From an uncultured Bacilli bacterium (GTDB lineage Bacteria; Bacillota_I; Bacilli_A; RF39; UBA660): a DNA stretch of 54,520 nt. The notes under the pieces were generated by a model. That model was given only the letters and a program-made list of their open reading frames with translations. It did no database searches and was not told where the DNA came from. The stretch is taken from positions 1-54,520 of the forward strand of contig CALVRJ010000004.1 in NCBI GenBank assembly GCA_944358545.1, read 5' to 3'. A program made the position numbers and the translations under genes. Within the stretch, counting starts at the first letter, position 1. The number at the start of each line of letters is the position of its first letter. This document shows positions 580 through 44,712 of this stretch, one piece after another.

Positions 580-1815
580 GTGAAAAAAAAGATATTATTT
601 GGCGTATTGATTGTTATTTTACTTATTATAATTATAATGGTGATTATTTATTTAAATAATAGAATTGTTGATGATAATAGTGGTTTTGTATTAAAAAAAG
701 ATTTAACAGCTGAGGTTTATAGTAAGGTTGATCTCGAAGATTATATTAAGAAAATAGATGGCAAGATTATTTCAAAAGATAAGATTAATACAAAAAAGGT
801 TGGCAAGAAAAATGTTAGTTTTATTTACTTAAATGCAGATGATAAAAAAAGACGAGGAACTTTTGAAGTCTCGGTTGTCGATACGGAAAAGCCGTTAGTT
901 TGGCTTAGTAGTAGTTATAGAACACCACTTGGAGAAAATATTGATTTAGAAAATGATGTGATGTGTGTAGATAATTATGATAATAATCCTTCATGCCGGG
1001 TTAAGGGTGATTATGATATAAATACTGAAGGAAGTTATCCTTTGACTTTTGTAGCAAAAGATAGTAGTGGCAATGTTTATTCACAAAGTTTTAATTTAAC
1101 TGTTTATAATCCTGATAATATATCTAGTGAAAAACAAGAGGTTAGTTCACAGACTGAGGAAGAGATTCCAGTGACTAATTTCAGTGATGTTTTGAATAAT
1201 TATAAAGCAGAAAATACAGAGGTTGGTATCGACGTTTCTAAGTATCAAGGGGATATTGATTTTACAAAGGTTAAAAATGCGGGTGCGACTTTTGTAATGA
1301 TTAGAGTAGGGACGCAAAATGGAGTAGGTGGAGATTATCAAATTGATCCTTATTTTGAAGGTAATATTAAAGGTGCTTTAGAGAATGGATTAAAGGTAGG
1401 GGTTTATTTTTATTCTTATGCCGACAGTAATGAGGAAGCTAGAAAGCAAGCTAGGTGGGTTATTAAGCAAATTAAGGATTATGATGTAAGTTTACCAGTA
1501 GTTTTTGATTTTGAAAGTTTTAAATCTTTTAACGAGATGGAACTTAGTATATTTGGTCTTAATGAGATTGCAGATACTTTTATTAAAACTATAGATGATG
1601 CGGGTTATAACGGAGTTTTATATGGAAGCAAGAGTTATTTGAATTCTATTTGGAAATATCATACAGCTCCGGTTTGGCTTGCACATTATACTGATGAAAC
1701 AGATTATACTGGCGATTATTTTATTTGGCAGATGTGTGATGATGGTGTTATCGATGGGATTGACGGTTATGTTGACATTGATGTACTTTATAAAAATAAA
1801 ATGAAAAAAAGTTGA
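580..1815 (+). CDS. Membrane-anchored GH25 family lysozyme/muramidase with Ig-like domain
   Basis: 411 aa, GTG start 8 nt after AAAGGAGG. Residues ~5-26 form one uncleaved membrane anchor. Residues ~105-200 look like a bacterial Ig-like (DUF5011-type) domain (DTEKP..., DNYDNNPS..., VAKDSSGN). Residues ~215-405 are a GH25 catalytic domain, with GIDVSKYQGDIDF at its start and the acidic pair in VVFDFES. GH25 enzymes hydrolyse the MurNAc-GlcNAc bond of peptidoglycan, here outside the membrane. The 3' end lies at the left border of the glycosyltransferase island: the last residues (KNKMKKS) are lysine-rich and the following fragment overlaps by 4 nt. The enzyme assignment is firm; its role (wall remodelling or defence) is not visible. 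Confidence 0.9.
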   Translation: MKKKILFGVLIVILLIIIIMVIIYLNNRIVDDNSGFVLKKDLTAEVYSKVDLEDYIKKIDGKIISKDKINTKKVGKKNVSFIYLNADDKKRRGTFEVSVVDTEKPLVWLSSSYRTPLGENIDLENDVMCVDNYDNNPSCRVKGDYDINTEGSYPLTFVAKDSSGNVYSQSFNLTVYNPDNISSEKQEVSSQTEEEIPVTNFSDVLNNYKAENTEVGIDVSKYQGDIDFTKVKNAGATFVMIRVGTQNGVGGDYQIDPYFEGNIKGALENGLKVGVYFYSYADSNEEARKQARWVIKQIKDYDVSLPVVFDFESFKSFNEMELSIFGLNEIADTFIKTIDDAGYNGVLYGSKSYLNSIWKYHTAPVWLAHYTDETDYTGDYFIWQMCDDGVIDGIDGYVDIDVLYKNKMKKS

Positions 1816-2132
1816 TTTGGCAATATAGTGATATCGTTTTGATGCCGGGTGAAAATCATTCTGAGTGGTCTGTACGTATAGCAAATAGTATATTGAATAT
1901 CATAAATGATTTGAGTCATAATGTTCAGTCAATAAACGTAACACATCGTGGTGCAATTTTTGAAATTCAAAAAATAATTGAAATGGTTAATGGTTATATA
2001 CAGATAAATCAAGTTGAAAAATACGAAACTTCATGGATGCCTTATTGTAAGGATTATATATTACATATAGATGATTTAAAGTCAGCAAAAATTCTTACAA
2101 AAAAATATATTTATCAAAGGAGTAAGAAATGA
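1812..2132 (+). pseudogene. C-terminal fragment of a histidine phosphatase (phosphoglycerate mutase superfamily)
   Basis: An open frame of 106 codons begins only with TTG, overlapping the end of the GH25 gene. It encodes PGENHSEW..R followed by INVTHRGAI, which aligns by eye with GENKFDIETR...LIVSHGSIT in the phosphatase domain encoded at 3223. That is the second half of the histidine phosphatase fold with the second catalytic His (VTH). The RHG-bearing N-terminal half is absent, so a full enzyme cannot be made. It ends in ATGA, overlapping the next gene. Best explained as a remnant at the border of an inserted surface-glycan island; translation as a small protein cannot be excluded. Confidence 0.55.
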
Positions 2133-3226
2133 AAATAATTATTAATCAACCTCGTTCTTCTTATTTTGTTGGTGGTGCTGAAATGATTTCTTTTAATCAT
2201 GCAATTAATTTTTTAGAACAAGGGCATGAAGTTTACTATTTTACGATATTGCCAAGTAGTATTGGATTAAAGTATTCGTCTCAGTTTAAAGCATTTTATA
2301 AAAAATATCATAATAAAATTAATATTATTGAAATTAAGCAAGATGAGAGCGTTAAATATATTTATAAAATTCAACCTGGAGAAGATAGGTGTAGATGGAA
2401 TATCGAATCTATTTTTTATAATCAGAAAATGTATGAGTATATTTCTGAGCATGGTGTGAGATATGATGTTGTTTTTTCTTATTATATATTGGATGCTGTA
2501 TTTGTTCCGAGAGAATTAGTTCAAAAGAATGTTTTATATTTGTGTGGGACTCCTAAACAACAGAATGATTTTCAAGGAAGCTTTTTGTCAGCATATGATG
2601 TTGTTATTGCAATTTCTCAAAATGTGAAGACTTCTTGGAAAAAATATTATAATAAAAATATGAGTGTAATTTCAACCGGTATTGATTGTGACAAATTTGC
2701 ATTAAAGATATTTCCGATAAAGGAAACTGAGTATATAACGGTTTTATATGTTGGACGCCTCATATCTAGAAAAAATGTAGATAAAATAATTTATGCTTTT
2801 GAAAAATTATATAAGAAGTATAGGTTAAGATTACTTATAGTTGGTGATGGTCCAGACAGAGAACATTTGGAGAGTATTTCTAGGCATGTGGAATTTATTG
2901 GTACTGTGGCAAATACAGAAACTTTTTATAAGCAGTCAGATATTTTTGTTTCTCCCTCTGAATATGGTGAAGGACTTCAGGGTTCTGTTCTTGAAGCAAT
3001 GAGTTGTGGCTTAACAGTAGTTGCGACTAAAACTCAAATAAATATGCAATTATTAACAGACGGACGAGGTTTTGTTGTAGCTCCAACAGTTGAATCTGTT
3101 ATAGCCGGAATTGAAGAAGCTATTAAAGCAGATAGGAAAGAAATAGCAAAAAAATGTCGAAATTATGTTGTTGAAAATTATGATTGGAAAAATAAGGTTA
3201 ATGAAATATGGGAGGTAATAAAATGA
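2129..3226 (+). CDS. GT4-family glycosyltransferase
   Basis: 365 aa with two Rossmann-like halves of GT-B fold. The N-terminal acceptor domain begins MKIIINQPRSSYFVGGAE. The C-terminal half has VLYVGRLISRKNVD, LLIVGDGPDRE and SPSEYGEGLQGSVLEAMSCG, the GT4 nucleotide-sugar binding region with the E(X7)E-like motif. Retaining transferases of this family add hexoses in capsule, teichoic-acid or glycolipid synthesis, at the cytoplasmic side of the membrane. The ATG follows AAAGGAG and overlaps the previous stop as ATGA; its own stop overlaps the next ATG the same way, so 2129-6309 reads as one translationally coupled operon. Donor and acceptor cannot be told from sequence. Confidence 0.9.
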   Translation: MKIIINQPRSSYFVGGAEMISFNHAINFLEQGHEVYYFTILPSSIGLKYSSQFKAFYKKYHNKINIIEIKQDESVKYIYKIQPGEDRCRWNIESIFYNQKMYEYISEHGVRYDVVFSYYILDAVFVPRELVQKNVLYLCGTPKQQNDFQGSFLSAYDVVIAISQNVKTSWKKYYNKNMSVISTGIDCDKFALKIFPIKETEYITVLYVGRLISRKNVDKIIYAFEKLYKKYRLRLLIVGDGPDREHLESISRHVEFIGTVANTETFYKQSDIFVSPSEYGEGLQGSVLEAMSCGLTVVATKTQINMQLLTDGRGFVVAPTVESVIAGIEEAIKADRKEIAKKCRNYVVENYDWKNKVNEIWEVIK

Positions 3227-4800
3227 ATATAATTTTTATGAGACATGGAGAGGCGACAGATAATGTTAAGGAATTAATTTCGGATAAAGAAATATATTGG
3301 TCAGTACTTACGGAAAATGGTAAAAAAACAGTTTTAGAATCGGTGAATGCTTTACCAAAAAATATTGATAAAATTTATGTTTCACCTTTCCCGAGAACTG
3401 TTGAAACTGCTCATTTTGTTTTTGAAAAATATCCTAATATAGAAGTAATTATAGAAAAGAGATTACATGAAATATATTACGGAAAATATTCTGGTCAAAA
3501 AAACAACGAAGAACTTGATCAAACAAGAGTAAAACAAATCGCAGGAGATTATTTTACACGATTTGGTGAATATGGTGAGAATAAATTTGATATAGAAACT
3601 AGGTTATGTGATTTTTTAAGTGATGTATATGCTAATAATTTTAATGATAACACTATTTTAATTGTTTCACATGGTTCTATTACGTCTTATATGAAAAGAA
3701 TTTTAAAAATAAAATCTCCACATATTAAAACTGGTAAAATAGAGGAATTTGTCAATGTTGATTTTTCTCCTTTATTTAAGCATTTACAATTATTAAAAAG
3801 TATAAAGATACAATGCATACGAGAAAGAACCAAAATGGTTAAATCGCTAAATGTTAATGACAAATTAAAAGCAAATATGATGAAAATTGCGAAAGATTTT
3901 AATAATATAGAGTTTTCTGAAAGTTATTTTTCAAATTTTATAAGTGGAATAAAGACAAATAATTTAGTTCAAAGAAAATTTTCTGAATTTGATGACGGAA
4001 TAATTTTAATATGTTTTTATAATAATTTTGAAAATTTTGCTCAAAAATGGATGGACCATTATCTTAGTATAGGAATTAAAAATTTTGTTTTGGTGGATAA
4101 TAATTCTACAGATAATTCAACCAAAATTTTAGAAACATATGATGAAAAGGCAAATATATCCTTTTGGAAAATAAACGAACAATATAATTGTTATAAAATG
4201 TGTGGCATGAAGCAACAGATTTTGGAATATTATGGTTCTGGGAGAAAGTATCTAATTGTAGATTCTGATGAATTATTTATATATGAGAATTATCGAAATG
4301 TTTTATTTGATGAGTATGTGGTAAAAAACAAAATATCATTTATTAAAAGTTTAATGTTAGATGTTTATACTAATAAAAATATTTTTGATGGGAAACTTGA
4401 TGATTTTAAATTTGTTGATAAAGGTACATATAGAATAACTAGTACAGTTCCTTATAGCCAACGTTTTTATGGTGGCCCTAGAACTAGAATTTTTGGAATA
4501 ACTCCTAGCTTACAAAAAATACCATTCATTTCATACTCGGGTAGCGAAATTTTAGCAAATGACCATTATTATTATCCATGGAACATAAATAATAAAGCGA
4601 AATATTGTTCATATTTACTTCATTATAAATTTTTGCCGGGTGATAGGAAAAAATACGAAATGTTTGTGAAAGATGAAAGGCACTGGAATAATTCACGCGA
4701 ATATAAAATTTATCAAGATGTATTATTAAGAAATCCAAAAACTTGCTTTTATGATAATGATATATCAATTTCTATTGATAAGATAGATTTTAAGTTTTAA
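3223..4800 (+). CDS. Histidine phosphatase-glycosyltransferase fusion protein
   Basis: 525 aa. The start at 3223 is preferred over the in-frame ATG at 3208 because GGAGG lies 7 nt upstream and the ATG overlaps the preceding stop (ATGA). Residues 1-~180 are a histidine phosphatase domain: FMRHGEATDN carries the phospho-accepting His, SPFPRTVETA the arginine, LIVSHGS the second His. Residues ~255-510 are a family 2/92-like glycosyltransferase (LICFYNNFENFAQKW, FVLVDNNSTDNS, IVDSDELFIYEN with the DxD-like metal site). Phosphatase and transferase may act in sequence on one glycan, such as removing a phosphate before or after sugar addition; this is inference. Both domain calls rest on motifs. Confidence 0.8.
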   Translation: MNIIFMRHGEATDNVKELISDKEIYWSVLTENGKKTVLESVNALPKNIDKIYVSPFPRTVETAHFVFEKYPNIEVIIEKRLHEIYYGKYSGQKNNEELDQTRVKQIAGDYFTRFGEYGENKFDIETRLCDFLSDVYANNFNDNTILIVSHGSITSYMKRILKIKSPHIKTGKIEEFVNVDFSPLFKHLQLLKSIKIQCIRERTKMVKSLNVNDKLKANMMKIAKDFNNIEFSESYFSNFISGIKTNNLVQRKFSEFDDGIILICFYNNFENFAQKWMDHYLSIGIKNFVLVDNNSTDNSTKILETYDEKANISFWKINEQYNCYKMCGMKQQILEYYGSGRKYLIVDSDELFIYENYRNVLFDEYVVKNKISFIKSLMLDVYTNKNIFDGKLDDFKFVDKGTYRITSTVPYSQRFYGGPRTRIFGITPSLQKIPFISYSGSEILANDHYYYPWNINNKAKYCSYLLHYKFLPGDRKKYEMFVKDERHWNNSREYKIYQDVLLRNPKTCFYDNDISISIDKIDFKF

Positions 4801-4819
4801 TCTTTTTTTGGAGGTAGTT

Positions 4820-5455
4820 ATGAAATATTTAATATTAAAAGACAAGAAAAAAATTAAAAGTATAATTAACTACTTAATTAGTATAGAATCTCTTCCTAAG
4901 ATACAAAGACGATTGAATATTTTTCCAGTAGATGATACATTTCAAATTGAAATTTTAAATAATAGGGTCAGTTATAGACGAGGAAATAGGAAGAAAGCTA
5001 TTTTTATTGAAAATAAAAATCTTAAATATTTTTTTAAAACCTTAGATAATTCGAAAGAATATTATATTAATGATATTTCTTTTTTAAGATTTAATAATTG
5101 TTCTTTATTGTTTGATACTTATCATGGTACTATAATTTCTGTGGAAAGTGAACAATTATGTCAAAATCTTGAGAGAAAATTTAAACTAACACATTATGAT
5201 AATATTAATGACCATAAATTTATTGTTAATCCTAAATCTGAGCATTTATTTGATGAAGTTGGCGTTTTAAATTCGAAAATAAGAAATTATGGAATTAAAA
5301 CGGGATTGGATATTCGTTCGACTAGTACTTCTTTAAAAGTTAGGCTGTCAAATATGTCTAATGATTATTCTTACTTGGAATATTATTATGAGAATATAAT
5401 GAATCATCACTTGTTATCTACTGTTTCTCATCAAAAAAAGAATGTTCAATTGTAA
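4820..5455 (+). CDS. Hypothetical protein of the glycosyltransferase island
   Basis: 211 aa from ATG 4820, chosen because GGAGG at 4810-4814 is well spaced; a longer reading from 4808 would start inside the Shine-Dalgarno. I recognise no family. The protein is basic, soluble, without signal peptide or membrane segment, and has alternating beta-like segments (ISFLRFNNCSLLFDTYHGTIISVES). It lies between the fusion transferase and a GT2 gene that has no visible ribosome site and starts 2 nt after this stop, so it could be the N-terminal part of a once continuous protein or a coupled partner. Function unknown. Confidence 0.65.
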   Translation: MKYLILKDKKKIKSIINYLISIESLPKIQRRLNIFPVDDTFQIEILNNRVSYRRGNRKKAIFIENKNLKYFFKTLDNSKEYYINDISFLRFNNCSLLFDTYHGTIISVESEQLCQNLERKFKLTHYDNINDHKFIVNPKSEHLFDEVGVLNSKIRNYGIKTGLDIRSTSTSLKVRLSNMSNDYSYLEYYYENIMNHHLLSTVSHQKKNVQL

Positions 5456-5457
5456 AT

Positions 5458-6309
5458 ATGAGTATAATAATTCCTGTGTATAATCAAGATGTAACATATA
5501 CTTTATTATCTATACAGGGGCAAAATTTATCAAAAGATGATAAGAAAAAACTTCAAGTTATTGTTGTTGATGATGGTTCGGAAAATGATGTTATAAGTGA
5601 AATTAATAAAATTAAAAGCAAGTTAGATTTTGAATTGCAAATAATTTCGCTTGAAGATAATATGGGATTGTTTAACGCAAGAAATGTTGGATTCGCAATT
5701 TCTAAATATAATCAAGTTCTTTTTATTGATTCAGATATAATTTTAAGTAAAAATTATATATATGATATGAATATAAGAATTCAATTGATACCCAATGCTA
5801 TATTTACTTGTATGAGAAAAAATATTGATAAAAATTCTAGTATTTTAGAGACAGGTAACTTGTTATTAGGTATTGATTCTAGTACTGATTTTGACGATAG
5901 TAGAGTTATTACTAAAGGAAAGGATTATCACATTGGATGTGATAAAGCATATGTAAATGAAGAGCTTTCTATATTAGACGATACAGATTATTTTAAGGAA
6001 TTGAGTTTTGGTTCACAAATAGGTATTTATAATATTGCTACTGTAGTATCCGGGCATAATATTGCTTTAAATAAGTCATTAATAAAATCTTCAACGCCAT
6101 TTAGTTCAAAATTTAAAGGATGGGGTATGGAAGATGCATATTTCTCCGCTAAATTGATATCGGAGGGTTGTTATGTTATTCCGGTTTTATCATCATGCGT
6201 TTATCATATTAACCATTTGCCAAGAAGCGGAAGCATAGAGCAAAAAAATAAAGAAGCCTATAATAATTACAACATTTATAACGAATTATTAAACCAACCA
6301 TGGAAATGA
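5458..6309 (+). CDS. GT2-family glycosyltransferase with galactosyltransferase-like C-terminus
   Basis: 283 aa. MSIIIPVYNQ opens a GT-A fold, VIVVDDGSEND binds the nucleotide, FIDSDIIL carries the DxD metal site, and GWGMEDAYFSAKLI near residue 220 matches the Glyco_transf_7C region of galactosyl/N-acetylgalactosaminyl transferases and chondroitin-type synthases. An inverting transferase for glycan elongation is likely. No Shine-Dalgarno is visible before the ATG, which lies 2 nt after the previous stop, so translation probably depends on coupling. The -1 frame upstream of the ATG stays open for a few codons, compatible with an ancestral fusion broken by an indel. Last gene of the island operon. 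Confidence 0.85.
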   Translation: MSIIIPVYNQDVTYTLLSIQGQNLSKDDKKKLQVIVVDDGSENDVISEINKIKSKLDFELQIISLEDNMGLFNARNVGFAISKYNQVLFIDSDIILSKNYIYDMNIRIQLIPNAIFTCMRKNIDKNSSILETGNLLLGIDSSTDFDDSRVITKGKDYHIGCDKAYVNEELSILDDTDYFKELSFGSQIGIYNIATVVSGHNIALNKSLIKSSTPFSSKFKGWGMEDAYFSAKLISEGCYVIPVLSSCVYHINHLPRSGSIEQKNKEAYNNYNIYNELLNQPWK

Positions 6310-6857
6310 TAAATTCATATATAATAATTTTGCTTTTGGGTTAATTATTATAATGGTAAATTAAATTATATCAATGTGCAGTTTTTCATGCTCTTTTAAA
6401 AAACGCTTTATTTTTAGAGTATTGTAGTTAATATTACTTTTATTACAATTAGAAAAATAAATAGTTTATACAAAAGAATATATAGATAGAAAGGAATTAA
6501 TCAAGGAATTAAATATATTTTATATGCTTGATTATATGAAAAATTATATGGATTTATTTAAGGAGTATTTTAAAGGTTCATTATATAAAGATATATTTAA
6601 TTCTACAAATGATTATTGTTTAGTTGTTTTATATGTTTTTGTTGGATATCCAGAGCATCAAACTATGACTCGATTTATGTATCCCAATATAAAACTAAAA
6701 AAAACTTTAAAGCCAATTGAAACTAAGAAAAAATACGAGAAAGAAATTTTAAAAATATAATGTAAAATATGATTTGTTCGTCTATATGGATTAGATATAT
6801 TAGAAGAAATTGTGATTGAAGATAAGATGAAAAAATAGTTAATTTGCCAATATTTGA
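6310..6857. other. AT-rich gap at the right edge of the island, with a doubtful small ORF
   Basis: About 550 nt without a convincing gene. It holds the inverted repeat at 6320-6352 and a 78-codon frame at 6524-6760 that lacks a good ribosome site and resembles nothing I know. The DNA is extremely AT-rich and looks like degraded island sequence between the glycosyltransferase operon and the rpsB promoter. Confidence 0.5.
6320..6352. repeat. Perfect 10-bp inverted repeat downstream of the glycosyltransferase operon
   Basis: TATAATAATT (6320-6329) and AATTATTATA (6343-6352) are perfect complements around a 13-nt loop. There is no T-run, so it is not a standard terminator, though it may protect the operon's 3' end. 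Confidence 0.5.
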
Positions 6858-6887
6858 TTGTACAAATTCATATAAATATGTTATAAT
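6858..6887 (+). promoter_or_regulatory. rpsB-tsf promoter
   Basis: TTGTAC (6858-6863), an 18-nt spacer and TATAAT (6882-6887). It is followed by an unusually long leader of about 105 nt, in contrast to the very short leaders elsewhere in this window. Confidence 0.7.
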
Positions 6888-6892
6888 AGCCT

Positions 6893-6985
6893 TGGCTTTT
6901 TTAAAAACACATGAATACGGATTTTCGAGCCTAGTGCCTATTTCATAGGTGGTGCGATTTTGAAGTGTTCAGAGGATAATAACAA
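6893..6985 (+). ncRNA. Candidate ribosomal protein S2 autoregulatory leader
   Basis: The rpsB 5' untranslated region is long and can fold. AACAC (6905-6909) pairs with GTGTT (6965-6969), enclosing a CCTA/TAGG hairpin around 6937-6949, followed by AAAGGAGG at 6985-6992. Many Firmicutes control rpsB-tsf by S2 binding to such a leader. The pairing is seen by eye; the regulatory function is by analogy. Confidence 0.45.
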
Positions 6986-7000
6986 AAGGAGGATGAGAGA

Positions 7001-8059
7001 ATGGCCGTTGTGTCAATGACTAATTTATTAGAGGCTGGTGTTCATTTTGGACATCAAACTAAAAGATGGAATCCAAAAATGAAGGAATACATCTTTACTG
7101 CAAGAGATGATATTTATATTATCGATTTACAAAAAACTGCAAAGAAAATCGAAGAAGCTTATGCAGCTTTAAAAGAAATTGCTGCTAATGGTGGAAAGGT
7201 TTTATTTGTAGGTACAAGAAAACAGGCTCAAGAAGCTGTAAAAGAAGAAGCTTTAAGAACTGATTCATTTTATGTTAATGAAAGATGGCTTGGTGGAACT
7301 TTAACTAACTTTAAGACTATTAGAAGAAGAGTTAAAAGACTTGAACAAATTGAGAAGATGGAAAAAGATGGAGTATTCGATCTTTTACCTAAAAAAGAAG
7401 TTGTTCATATTAAAAAAGAATATGCTAAGTTAAACAAATTACTTGCCGGTATTAGAAATATGTACAAATTACCACAAGCTTTATATATTGTTGATCCTTC
7501 AAAAGAAGAGATTGCAATTAGAGAAGCTAGAAAATTACATATTCCAGTATTTGGTATTGTTGATACTAACTGTGATCCTGATATGGTTGATTATGTAATT
7601 CCTGGTAATGATGATGCAATTAGAGCTGTTAAATTAATTACTGGTGTTATGGGTAATGCGATTGCTGAAGCTAATGGTGGAAAGTTAGTTGATTATGTAA
7701 GTGGCGATGGTCACAGAGAAGAAAAAGGCGAAGATATTATGAAGAGAGCCTTAGAAACTGTTAAGAAAAAAGAAGACAGAAAGCCAAGATTTGACCGTAA
7801 GGATAGAAAACCTTTCAATAAATCATCTGATAATAAATCATCTGAAAAAAGTGAAGCTCAACCTAAAAAAGTTCAAAAGACTGAAGAGAAACCTTCAGTA
7901 AAAGAAGAAGTCAAAGAAGTTCAGGCAGAAGAAACTAAAAAAGCCGATGTAGATTTATCTACAAAAAATGTAGCTGAACTTCGTGAAATGGCAAAAGAAA
8001 AAGGACTTAAAGGTTATTCAACAATGAAAAAAGCTGATCTTATTGAAGCTTTAAAATAG
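7001..8059 (+). CDS. rpsB: 30S ribosomal protein S2 with C-terminal SAP/Rho-N-like extension
   Basis: 352 aa, against the usual ~230-260. Residues 1-~235 are a canonical S2 ([53 protein letters not shown]). After that comes a ~75-residue charged Lys/Glu linker, and then about 35 C-terminal residues ([20 protein letters not shown]...[10 protein letters not shown]) that look like the small helical SAP/HeH/Rho-N nucleic-acid binding fold. S2 binds late to the 30S subunit near the mRNA exit and needs S1 or the Shine-Dalgarno region. The start has AAAGGAGG 8 nt upstream. The extension might add RNA contacts; that is inference. Confidence 0.97.
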
Positions 8060-8064
8060 TTAAC

Positions 8065-8091
8065 AAAAGATGATTTAAAATCATCTTTTTT
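8065..8091 (+). terminator. Intrinsic terminator/attenuator between rpsB and tsf
   Basis: GATGAT (8069-8074) pairs with ATCATC (8080-8085), extended by A-T pairs and followed by a run of Ts. It sits in the rpsB-tsf gap, where a partial terminator would lower tsf expression relative to rpsB. Confidence 0.7.
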
Positions 8092-8114
8092 AAATAAAAA
8101 AGGAGAGTAGAAAA

Positions 8115-8984
8115 ATGGTAAGTGCAAGTTTAGTAAAAGAACTTAGAGAGAAGACAGGAGCAGGAATGCTTGACTGTAAAAAAGCTTTAGAAGCTAACGA
8201 TGGAAATATCGAAGCATCTATCGATTGGCTTAGAGAAAAAGGTATTTCTAAAGCTGCTAAAAAAAGTGATAGAATTGCTGCAGAAGGAATTGCTTCTATT
8301 TTAGTTGACGGTAATGATGCTGTTATTTTGGAAATGAATTCAGAAACTGATTTCGTTGCTCAAAATGAAAAATTTAAAGAACTTGTTGCAAGTGTGTTAA
8401 AAGCTATTATTAAAAGTGATGCAAAAACTGTAGAAGAAGCTTTAGCTTTACCTTGCGAAGATGGAACAGTTAATGATTTAATTATTTCTAAAACTGCAAC
8501 TATTGGTGAAAAACTTTCTTTAAGAAGATTTGCCAAAGTTACTAAAGGTGATAATGAAACATTTGGTTCTTACATTCATATGGGTGGTAAAATTGCCGTA
8601 CTTATTGTAACTGAAAACACTTCAGAAGAAGTAGCTAAAGATGTAGCAATGCACGCTGCTGCAATGAGACCTAAATATGTTAAGACTACTGATGTTCCAG
8701 CAGAAGAGGTTGCTAGAGAGGAAGAAGTTTTAAAAGAACAAGCTGTTAATGAAGGTAAACCTGCCGAGATTGCTGAAAAAATGGTTAAGGGTAGAATTAA
8801 TAAGTTCTATAAAGAAATTTGTCTTGAAGAACAACCATTTGTTAAAGATGGAGACATCAATGTTAAAACTTATGTTAAGAACAATGGTGGCGAGATTAAG
8901 GCAATGTACCGTTATGAAGTAGGCGAAGGTATGGAAAAAAGAGAAGAAAATTTTGCTGAAGAAGTAGCTAAACAAATGAAATAA
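8115..8984 (+). CDS. tsf: Translation elongation factor Ts
   Basis: 289 aa, normal length. The N-terminal UBA-like domain contains [20 protein letters not shown], the next segment has the EF-Tu contact motif [15 protein letters not shown], and the C-terminal dimerisation core ends [39 protein letters not shown]-Ts exchanges GDP for GTP on EF-Tu in the cytoplasm. It follows rpsB after 55 nt, with its own AAAGGAGAG ribosome site after the internal terminator, the classical rpsB-tsf pair. Confidence 0.98.
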
Positions 8985-9008
8985 GTATCTTAAAGGATAC
9001 TTTTTTTG
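8984..9008 (+). terminator. Terminator of rpsB-tsf
   Basis: AGTATC (8984-8989) pairs with GATACT (8996-9001) and is followed by seven Ts. It overlaps the last base of the tsf stop codon. Confidence 0.85.
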
Positions 9009-9115
9009 TAAATTAAAAATTTATAGTAAATATTTAATAATAGTTAAGCATAATATTATAGTTTAATAAAATATTATGATGGTGATATACTTTCTATAAA
9101 GCAAGGTTGTTATAT

Positions 9116-9446
9116 ATGGAAGCAATTAGTATGATAAGTATTCAAGTTGATTCTAGCAATAAAGAAATAGCTAATAAGATTTCGAAAAATCTTGGACTTA
9201 ATATGAGTACTTTTGTAAATATGGTAATAAAACAATTGATTTATACTAATGGTTTTCCTTTTTGATGTTAAAATTCCCAGACCTAGTAAGGAACTTTTGG
9301 TTGCTTTAGAGGAAGGTGAAGACATTTTAAATGGTGATGTAGAGGCAAAAGAATATCATAATATTAATGATTTACTTGAGAATTTGAAAAATAAGTTGAA
9401 TACTGTAACAGATACAAAATATGAGATAAAATATACAAGTAAATAA
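9116..9446 (+). pseudogene. RelB/DinJ-family antitoxin interrupted by a 1-nt frameshift
   Basis: From ATG 9116 the frame encodes a ribbon-helix-helix N-terminus (ISIQVDSSNKEIANKISKNL, NMSTFVNMVIKQLIYTNGFPF) and stops at 9265. The next frame (ORF from 9249) continues with FDVKIPRPSKELLVALEEGEDILNGD, exactly what follows GFPF in RelB/DinJ antitoxins. Removing one T from the five-T run at about 9258-9263 would rejoin them into one ~109-residue protein. DinJ antitoxins bind DNA as dimers and neutralise YafQ. The toxin remnant follows directly. The frameshift is either real decay or an error at a homopolymer. Confidence 0.75.
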
Positions 9447-9463
9447 AAAAATAATTTAAGTAA

Positions 9464-9640
9464 ATGTTAAAGCAAGGAAAAAACGAAAAGAATTTTTCAG
9501 AAGTTTTAGAATATTTGGCTAATGAAAAAGAACTACCAGAATAGTATAGAAATTATACTTTGTTTGATAGCAAAAAATATTTAAAATGTTGTGAATGTCA
9601 TATTGAACTAGATTGGTTACTTGTATATAAAATAAAATGA
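9464..9640 (+). pseudogene. Remnant of a YafQ/RelE-family mRNA interferase toxin
   Basis: The frame reads LKQGKNEKNFSEVLEYLANEKELPE, an in-frame TAG (9542-9544), then YRNYTLF...ECHIELDWLLVYKIK. This is the typical second half of YafQ (GKELPE-YRDH..., ECHIEPDWLLIY). The N-terminal third is missing and the TAG takes the place of a residue between PE and YR. YafQ-type toxins cleave mRNA on the ribosome. With the antitoxin frameshifted and the toxin truncated, the module is almost certainly dead. Confidence 0.75.
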
Positions 9641-9727
9641 TGAATTAATATTATTATTTTTGGCTACTTTTTCAGCAGCCTCATTTTTTACTTTGTTTTT
9701 TAGTTAAAAATTTTATTTTATATAGTT

Positions 9728-9813
9728 ATCTATGAAAAACGTGATATTTTCTGTGATTTTATCTATGAAAAACGTGATATTTTTTACAATTTTATCTATG
9801 AAAAATGTGTGAT
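9728..9813. repeat. Three direct repeats with 33-bp period upstream of the DUF4143 ATPase
   Basis: The core ATCTATGAAAAACGTGATAT occurs at 9728 and 9761, and a diverged copy (ATCTATGAAAAATGTG) at 9794, each exactly 33 nt apart, about three helical turns. A shorter match (TTATCTATGGACAG) lies over the start codon at 9865. Same-face spacing suggests a protein binding site, perhaps for autoregulation. Confidence 0.7.
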
Positions 9814-9864
9814 TAATTTTCTTTTTAACTTTTAAAATGTTAATATAAATATAGGTGATTATCT

Positions 9865-11181
9865 ATGGACAGAAAAATATATAATGAATTACTTAAATGG
9901 AAAAACGAAAAGAATAATATAAAACCACTTATGGTTTTAGGGGTTAGGCAGTCAGGAAAAACTTATATTATCGATGAGTTTTGTAAAAGAGAATATAAGA
10001 ATTATATTTATGTTAATTTATTTGAAAATGACGATGTAATTAAGCTTTATAATTCAGACTTAAATTCTGATGAAAAGTTTGCTCAATTTAAGGTTTTGCT
10101 TAACTTTGATTTTGATAAAGAGGATCCAATTTTATTTATCGATGAGATTCAAGAGTCTGAAAAACTTATTTCAGAGCTTAAGTATTTTTGTGAGAGACAC
10201 AATAATGTGAAAATTATATGTGCGGGCTCTTTGCTTGGCGTTAAACTTAAAAGATCTAAGTTTTCATTTCCTGTCGGAAAAGTAAAGATGCTTAATATGT
10301 ATCCAATGGATTTTGAAGAGTTTTTAATGGCAATGGGTGAGAATTTATTAATTAAGATGATTAGAGATAGTTATAAAAATAATAAAGCTTTATCTGAGCC
10401 ATTACATAATAAAGCAATGAGACTTTATTATACTTATTTAATTACTGGTGGAATGCCTGAGAGTGTTAAATCAATGGTGGCAACTAATGGTGATTATATA
10501 AAATATGATATTTCAATTTTACCAGATATAGTTAGTTCATATTTTAAGGATATGGATAAATATGTGACAAGTGAAGCAGAATCTTTAAAAATACAAAGAG
10601 TTTATAATTCGCTTCCTTCACAACTTTCTAATTTATCAAATAAATTTCAATTTTCGAAGGTTGTTAAAGGGGCAAGAGCTAGAGAATACGAAACTTCTTT
10701 AGACTGGCTTTTAGCTAGTAATATGGTTCTTTTATCTAAGATGGTTAGGGTACCTGAGATTCCTTTGGTAGGTTATGCATATAATGATATTTTTAAGATA
10801 TATTTGAGTGATGTTGGGATACTTAATAGTATTTTAAAAATATCAATGAATGATATTTTGTCAAATAATATTTCTTTATATAAAGACGTAATTGCGGAGA
10901 ATTATGTGGCTAATCAACTTGTTTGTAATAATCATGATTTATTTTATTGGCAGAATAATACGTCTAAGGTTGATTTTTTACTTTATTCAAAAGAGGGAAT
11001 TATTCCGGTAGAAGTTAAAGCTTCTGATAATGTTAGATCAAAAAGTTTAAATGTTTATTTTGAAAAGTATCATCCTAAGTACATGGTAAGAATTAGTGCG
11101 AGAAATTTTGGATTTGATTCTAAGAAGAATATTAAGTCAGTTCCACTTTATGCGGTATTTTGTATCGAAAAAGATTTGTAA
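9865..11181 (+). CDS. AAA_14/DUF4143-family ATPase
   Basis: 438 aa. The N-terminal AAA_14 domain has Walker A GVRQSGKTYIID (residues ~26-37) and Walker B PILFIDEIQES (~90-100). The middle (PMDFEEFL, ITGGMPESV) and C-terminal DUF4143 region end with a nuclease-like fold segment (VIAENYVANQLV..., FYWQNNTSKVDFLLY, IIPVEVKAS) resembling PD-(D/E)XK enzymes, with D, E and K in VDF...EVK. These proteins are abundant in gut bacteria, often singleton, of unknown function, and suspected of mobile-element or defence roles. It sits beside a decayed toxin-antitoxin pair and behind a repeat array, and has its own terminator. Confidence 0.85.
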   Translation: MDRKIYNELLKWKNEKNNIKPLMVLGVRQSGKTYIIDEFCKREYKNYIYVNLFENDDVIKLYNSDLNSDEKFAQFKVLLNFDFDKEDPILFIDEIQESEKLISELKYFCERHNNVKIICAGSLLGVKLKRSKFSFPVGKVKMLNMYPMDFEEFLMAMGENLLIKMIRDSYKNNKALSEPLHNKAMRLYYTYLITGGMPESVKSMVATNGDYIKYDISILPDIVSSYFKDMDKYVTSEAESLKIQRVYNSLPSQLSNLSNKFQFSKVVKGARAREYETSLDWLLASNMVLLSKMVRVPEIPLVGYAYNDIFKIYLSDVGILNSILKISMNDILSNNISLYKDVIAENYVANQLVCNNHDLFYWQNNTSKVDFLLYSKEGIIPVEVKASDNVRSKSLNVYFEKYHPKYMVRISARNFGFDSKKNIKSVPLYAVFCIEKDL

Positions 11182-44010: not shown

Positions 44011-44712
44011 TTGAGTAATATTTATTTAATTAGACATGGTTTTACGCCGGCTAATAATGCAAGTTATAATAATCAAAGAGGAATGTCAGAGATTGCAATA
44101 GATAGTTATATGCCCCTTGAAAAACATTATGGAAGAAGGCAAGCAGAAGAGCTTGGTAAGTTTTTAGATACAATTAAAGGTAAGACACTTATTTTGGTAA
44201 GTCCTTATAGCAGAACTTTGGAAACTTTAGAAATTGCGCTTAAATATATGCATGGTGATTATAGAGTTATGATAAAGGATGAGCTTCACGAAATTAATTC
44301 GGGTATTCATTATGCAAGAACAAAAGATGAGGTTTTAGAATTGTTTCCAGAAACCGGTAAGTCTTTTTATCGTTTGAAAAAGTGGTTTCCTAATGCGACG
44401 CATTATATATATGGAGAATCCGAGAGGGATGTAGAGTACAGAGTGTATGATATTAGCGTGTATATTGAGGAAATGGCAACGGAATATGATAATGTTTTTG
44501 TGTTTGGTCATGGGACGGTAAATAAGTGGATTTATTATTGGATAAGTGATGAGAATGTGCTTGATCATAATATGAAAAACTGTGAAGTTATAAAGATTAA
44601 TGGGAAAAAGGCTGAAACTGTATTTGTGCCTGAGACGGTTGTTCCAAAAGGGTATATGGTTGATATTGATGAATATGTTCGGAGAAGAGGAAATAAAATT
44701 AAACAAAAGTAA
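44011..44712 (+). CDS. Histidine phosphatase-family protein
   Basis: 233 aa if started at TTG 44011 (MSNIYLIRHGFTPAN), with GGGTGACGAAG upstream; in-frame GTG 43999 and TTG 43990 are possible. RHG carries the catalytic His, SPYSRTLETL the Arg, ELHEINSG an acidic residue, and FVFGHGTVNKW the second His. Such enzymes dephosphorylate sugars, glycerates or proteins. It is not close to the island phosphatase domain at 3223 beyond motifs. Monocistronic, upstream of the rpsP promoter. Confidence 0.85.
   Translation: MSNIYLIRHGFTPANNASYNNQRGMSEIAIDSYMPLEKHYGRRQAEELGKFLDTIKGKTLILVSPYSRTLETLEIALKYMHGDYRVMIKDELHEINSGIHYARTKDEVLELFPETGKSFYRLKKWFPNATHYIYGESERDVEYRVYDISVYIEEMATEYDNVFVFGHGTVNKWIYYWISDENVLDHNMKNCEVIKINGKKAETVFVPETVVPKGYMVDIDEYVRRRGNKIKQK

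Follow-up and report, generated by a model that had tools for sequence, protein, structure and literature searches.

A histidine phosphatase fused to a glycosyltransferase in gut Bacilli and Saccharibacteria, and its gene cassette

One gene in the 54,520-nucleotide stretch of uncultured Bacilli DNA that we analyzed (hereafter the window) seems to encode a histidine phosphatase and a glycosyltransferase (GT) in a single chain. Is this pairing a real enzyme, which genes accompany it, and what could be gained by joining the two activities? As judged from sequence comparisons, the domain pairing is real, conserved and apparently undescribed, and a mechanism that uses both halves is plausible. No paper describing a fusion of a histidine phosphatase with a GT was found in the literature searched.

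Two domains in one reading frame

Direct reading of the sequence gives one open frame running from the ATG at 3223 to the stop codon at 4798-4800, with a ribosome-binding site (GGAGGT, 3211-3216, + strand) upstream of the start; an alternative ATG at 3208 overlaps this site. The gene and its parts are as follows.

3223-4800, + strand: histidine phosphatase/GT-A glycosyltransferase fusion, 525 aa (reading frame, Pfam, model, homologues)
3223-3762, + strand: histidine phosphatase domain, residues 1-180, with R7 H8, R58, E83 and H150 (PF00300, structural matches)
3763-3996, + strand: helical linker, residues 181-258 (model helices, fast evolution)
3997-4797, + strand: GT-A domain and C-terminal tail, residues 259-525 (PF13704, Foldseek GT matches)
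4261-4269, + strand: DxD of the GT-A domain, residues 347-349 (D347-S348-D349)

In the AlphaFold model (pLDDT 83.5), helices 182-207, 213-223 and 233-244 form a linker (182-244) between the phosphatase and a well-predicted GT domain; residues 14-25 and 84-115 of the phosphatase are poorly predicted. Both halves score above the Pfam gathering cut-offs: residues 3-165 match His_Phos_1 (PF00300; E 3.6e-21, 76.1 bits against 21.7), which places the domain in branch 1 of the histidine phosphatases, and residues 271-357 match Glyco_tranf_2_4 (PF13704; E 2.8e-12, 47.4 bits against 27.5). The two families were matched in all 16 aligned full-length fusions. The single chain with a histidine phosphatase and a GT-A domain that an earlier note had read from the sequence was thus recovered, as was its complete set of phosphatase motifs, with R7, H8, R58, E83 and H150 invariant in 16/16 fusions. 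The DxD is kept in 14 of them, including that of the window, and is absent only from L059 and L060, which have also lost part of the C-terminal tail. A lack of catalytic residues in the window protein is ruled out by this alignment. The same note had called the transferase "2/92-like", which is roughly right: the domain is GT2-type, with PF13704 as its formal family, but GT92 (PF01697) was not matched by the window protein at E 0.1 and was reached by a single one of 16 relatives (E 6.4e-4).

NCBIfam phosphatase models also match the fusion, every score being far under its cut-off, so that a specific substrate is not readable from them. No HAD family was found among the Pfam matches, and no mannosyl-3-phosphoglycerate phosphatase match was found in Pfam or NCBIfam. 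In structure searches, the phosphatase fold resembled CobC, phosphoserine phosphatase and GpgP Rv2419c; the structural likeness of the GT half comes entirely from Foldseek matches to SunS, LARGE1 and CgT. A PDB sequence search with the GT half, or with the upstream gene c2 described below, gave no useful relative.

Purifying selection acts on both the phosphatase and the GT domain. Estimated pair by pair, dN/dS lay at about 0.07-0.18 in the phosphatase; in the GT it was about 0.09-0.29, most pairs falling at about 0.1-0.2, and in the linker it ranged over about 0.18-0.69. These ratios are rough because dS is near or above 1 in most pairs.

Distribution and relatives of the fusion

About 20 further fusions were identified, 58-80% identical in Bacilli metagenome-assembled genomes from the gut and 38-49% identical in five Saccharibacteria. 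The fusion is present in 2 of 23 sampled congeners of the window genome, in four further genomes of its family (385 sampled), and at 20 loci of the GTDB genome collection, which include two Saccharibacteria and two broken copies (L065 and L066); these three sets overlap in part. Three additional Saccharibacterial fusions were found (L081, L082 and L084), while a sample of 392 Bacillota genomes yielded none beyond the family of the window. L066 is broken by frameshifts after the phosphatase. The Saccharibacterial copy L065 (2041-3606) has an in-frame TAA within the phosphatase and is either a decayed copy or a sequence error. Ribosomal protein genes flank the L064 and L065 fusions (L097, L098), which supports a chromosomal placement.

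An assembly error or chimera is ruled out by the presence of the fusion in many independent genomes. The objection raised in the earlier note, that the two parts might always be separate genes elsewhere and joined here by misassembly, fails, as they are fused in about 20 other genomes of two phyla. We conclude that the two domains genuinely belong to one enzyme. A phage origin was rejected: there was no phage match, and the viral contigs that a pattern picked out encoded no relative. A plasmid origin was rejected as well, plasmids carrying only distant GT2 proteins (25-29% identity). That Bacilli and Saccharibacteria share the fusion points to horizontal transfer between these two small-genome bacterial groups.

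Four close relatives (L067, L068, L069 and L071; 63-71% identical) consist of the phosphatase only. In a phosphatase-domain tree, they are nested among the fusions, and a single clade of all fusions was rejected (p-AU 0.005, with long-branch caveats), which indicates that loss of the GT is tolerated. In our reading, the phosphatase-only genes probably descend from a fused ancestor whose GT was lost; among the relatives, fused genes are the commonest form and, judged from this tree, appear to be the older one.

A conserved cassette, decaying in the window

The cluster comparison that the earlier note had proposed revealed conserved partners. Neighbour clustering gave a recurrent order of c5 (a second histidine phosphatase), c2 (a GT4), the fusion, and c1 (an N-terminal part of no known family followed by a GT2). 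This four-gene cassette is complete in six loci (L053, L055, L056, L061, L063 and L072) and partial in five (L050, L054, L057, L070 and the window). In the window, the genes accompanying the fusion are as follows.

1812-2132, + strand: c5 remnant, C-terminal half of the second histidine phosphatase (BLAST cluster with the 234-239 aa His_Phos proteins of L053, L055, L056, L061, L063 and L072)
2129-3226, + strand: c2, GT4-type glycosyltransferase (Glycos_transf_1, E 2e-29, Pfam), with a 4-nt overlap with the fusion start
4820-5455, + strand: N-terminal part of c1, no family match, ended by a frameshift in the A-run 5433-5439
5458-6309, + strand: C-terminal part of c1, GT2 glycosyltransferase (Glycos_transf_2, E 2.3e-16, Pfam)
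6524-6760, + strand: c14 remnant, clustering with L050 11291-12631 and L061 4939-6126; its 78-aa frame keeps only both ends

The fusion is co-inherited with the second histidine phosphatase, the GT4 and the GT2 enzyme. The 4-nt overlap of c2 and the fusion occurs in eight loci, and, with the distant Saccharibacterium left out, the fusion varies in pairwise identity in step with c1 (r 0.92), c5 (r 0.97) and c2 (r 0.73). The c1 gene was present in 3 of 370 genomes, all three with the fusion. Among 17 genomes examined, c5 adjoins fusions only, save for a c5-like paralogue in the cluster of the Saccharibacterial locus L094, and it was not seen in eight that bear a fusion. Intact copies of c5 have 234-239 aa, and c1 is a single frame of 495-497 aa in other cassettes; the profile relatives of its GT2 part include chondroitin synthase, and its N-terminal part was modelled with a pLDDT of only 48.7. 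The cassette has no recurrent sugar-nucleotide, polymerase or exporter gene.

PADLOC gave no match for the fusion, c5, c2 or c1, and a known anti-phage defence system was therefore rejected; its helicase models matched only a UvrD/HelD-like gene that lies upstream of some of the Bacilli copies. NUDIX, Ham1-like, inorganic-pyrophosphatase-like and APH genes recur in the flanks of L054, L056, L072, L066 and L060. Intact c14 genes, which lie near the cassette in L050 and L061, encode proteins of about 395-446 aa without a Pfam match that, by eye, are perhaps transglutaminase- or papain-like.

The c2 protein of the window is 61-69% identical to those of other cassettes and 40% identical to the Saccharibacterial copy. 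In L094, the fusion is preceded by a homologue of c5 (31-35%), and one of c2 (39-41%) is found on the opposite strand at a distance of 4 kb. In all, the L094 cluster (3136-10917) encodes four histidine phosphatase domains, including that of the fusion, together with a GT4, a GT2, Ham1 and a thymidylate-synthase-like protein. In another Saccharibacterium, L096 (9153-10982) encodes a histidine phosphatase fused to UDP-galactopyranose mutase (GLF), beside cytidylyltransferase-like, APH-like and GT2 genes, which implies that such phosphatases join different sugar enzymes. Conversely, L085 (1429-3417, - strand) joins a fusion-type GT domain to a GT2 domain, without a phosphatase, in a capsule-like locus.

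Three close congeners (L139, L140 and L144) have rpsB immediately downstream of a collagen-like gene. The window has a GH25 lysozyme gene and the cassette (580-6760) between these two genes, which makes this an insertion upstream of rpsB. No convincing direct repeats were found at its ends, and no intrinsic terminator was found between 1700 and 7050. The inserted cassette is decaying, although the fusion itself is intact: c5 is truncated (profile match at 1827-2129, model positions 135-235 of 237), c1 is frameshifted (the c1 profile, A4, matches 4820-5455 and 5410-6306 in two frames) and c14 is mostly deleted. Programmed slippage at the A-run of c1 is possible, but the gene is intact in relatives, so that a mutation or an assembly error is the simpler explanation. 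Elsewhere in the window, a stand-alone branch-1 histidine phosphatase is encoded at 44020-44616 (PF00300, 78 bits).

Possible roles and comparison with known systems

We propose, with confidence that is evenly balanced, that the fusion acts as a bifunctional enzyme, encoded in a small glycosylation cassette that moves horizontally, and combines sugar transfer with phosphate removal. The GT-A domain would transfer a sugar from a nucleotide sugar, the acceptor or the product bearing a phosphate monoester, and the phosphatase domain would strip the phosphate from that acceptor or product. Removal of the phosphate could make the step irreversible and free a hydroxyl for the next glycosyltransferase. 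The end product may be a short glycan, a glycolipid or a glycosylated small molecule, built on precursors that the host already has since no sugar-nucleotide, polymerase or exporter gene is a recurrent part of the cassette. Stepwise handling of a phosphorylated sugar, as the earlier note had suggested, remains the best-supported mechanism, which we infer from the domain anatomy and from experimentally shown analogues. The strongest counter-evidence to a coupled mechanism is the existence of phosphatase-only and GT-dead copies, which argue against an obligatory coupling. Together with the frameshifted L066 and the genomes without c5, they indicate that the two activities are not strictly interdependent.

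These copies speak for a phosphatase that acts first or separately, releasing a soluble acceptor or precursor (a sugar, polyol or nucleoside) from its phosphate, the fusion serving only for channelling or co-expression. The phosphatase-GLF fusion of L096 favours this as well, but purifying selection also acts on the GT half, and genes in the fused form are the commonest and apparently older than the phosphatase-only ones; we consider this explanation unlikely. Less probable still is a phosphatase that degrades the nucleotide by-product or other nucleotides, either to relieve product inhibition of the GT or to serve a nucleoside-glycoside pathway. TunG belongs to the phosphoglycerate-mutase family. 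In favour of this explanation, TunG and TunN act in the supply of precursors for tunicamycin (PMC6105854). The thymidylate-synthase-like protein, Ham1 and two more histidine phosphatases of L094 point in this direction, as do the Ham1, NUDIX and pyrophosphatase-like genes near several Bacilli fusions; these neighbours, however, lie outside the tight cassette and vary by locus, and near the Bacilli fusions we noticed no ThyA-like gene. Finally, that neighbouring genes simply became joined, with only the phosphatase selected and the GT carried along, is very improbable despite several GT losses or inactivations and the partly broken cassette of the window, given the low dN/dS of the GT in most pairs, the DxD kept in 14/16 and the retention of the fused state across two phyla.

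Returning to the bifunctional enzyme, we suggest only tentatively that it and its partner genes form an undescribed mobile cassette, which has moved between gut Bacilli and Saccharibacteria with small genomes and whose product is a new glycoside or glycolipid freed of its phosphate. The conserved partners of the fusion would define a small, testable pathway. More generally, GT-phosphatase fusions can mark steps in which a phosphate is retained during a transfer and only afterwards removed; such steps are hard to see in separate genes.

The GT half finds its sequence relatives among capsule-type GT2_4 glycosyltransferases (L004, L014-L017 and L085; 32-35% identical), of which L004 and L085 adjoin UDP-sugar dehydrogenase-like genes. 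Unlike the fusion, these proteins carry no phosphatase, the one of L085 being joined to a GT2 instead. As for systems of known function, the mycobacterial GpgS/GpgP pair is encoded by two separate genes, in contrast to the one fused gene here. GpgS is a GT81 synthase. GpgP Rv2419c, a histidine phosphatase whose substrate is a glycosylated phosphate, dephosphorylates glucosyl-3-phosphoglycerate (PMC3866925), and its structure is among the matches to the N-terminal domain of the fusion (fold only).

The domains of MgsD of Dehalococcoides belong to other families than those of the fusion. They are a GT55 synthase and a HAD phosphatase. As a mannosylglycerate synthase/phosphatase in one chain, MgsD makes a phosphate-free glycoside (PMC6240254). 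Cj1432 of the Campylobacter jejuni HS:2 capsule and Bcs3 of Haemophilus influenzae type b also combine glycosyl transfer and dephosphorylation in one polypeptide, the phosphatase removing a phosphate before the next transfer (PMC12096443). Their donor is PRPP and the Cj1432 phosphatase is of the HAD type, whereas the fusion described here pairs a branch-1 histidine phosphatase with a GT2_4 GT-A domain. As the fusion has no HAD phosphatase, we claim that it works like Cj1432, Bcs3 and MgsD and not that it is one of them: it is most likely analogous to, and not a member of, MgsD, GpgS/GpgP, Cj1432 or the type b Bcs3.
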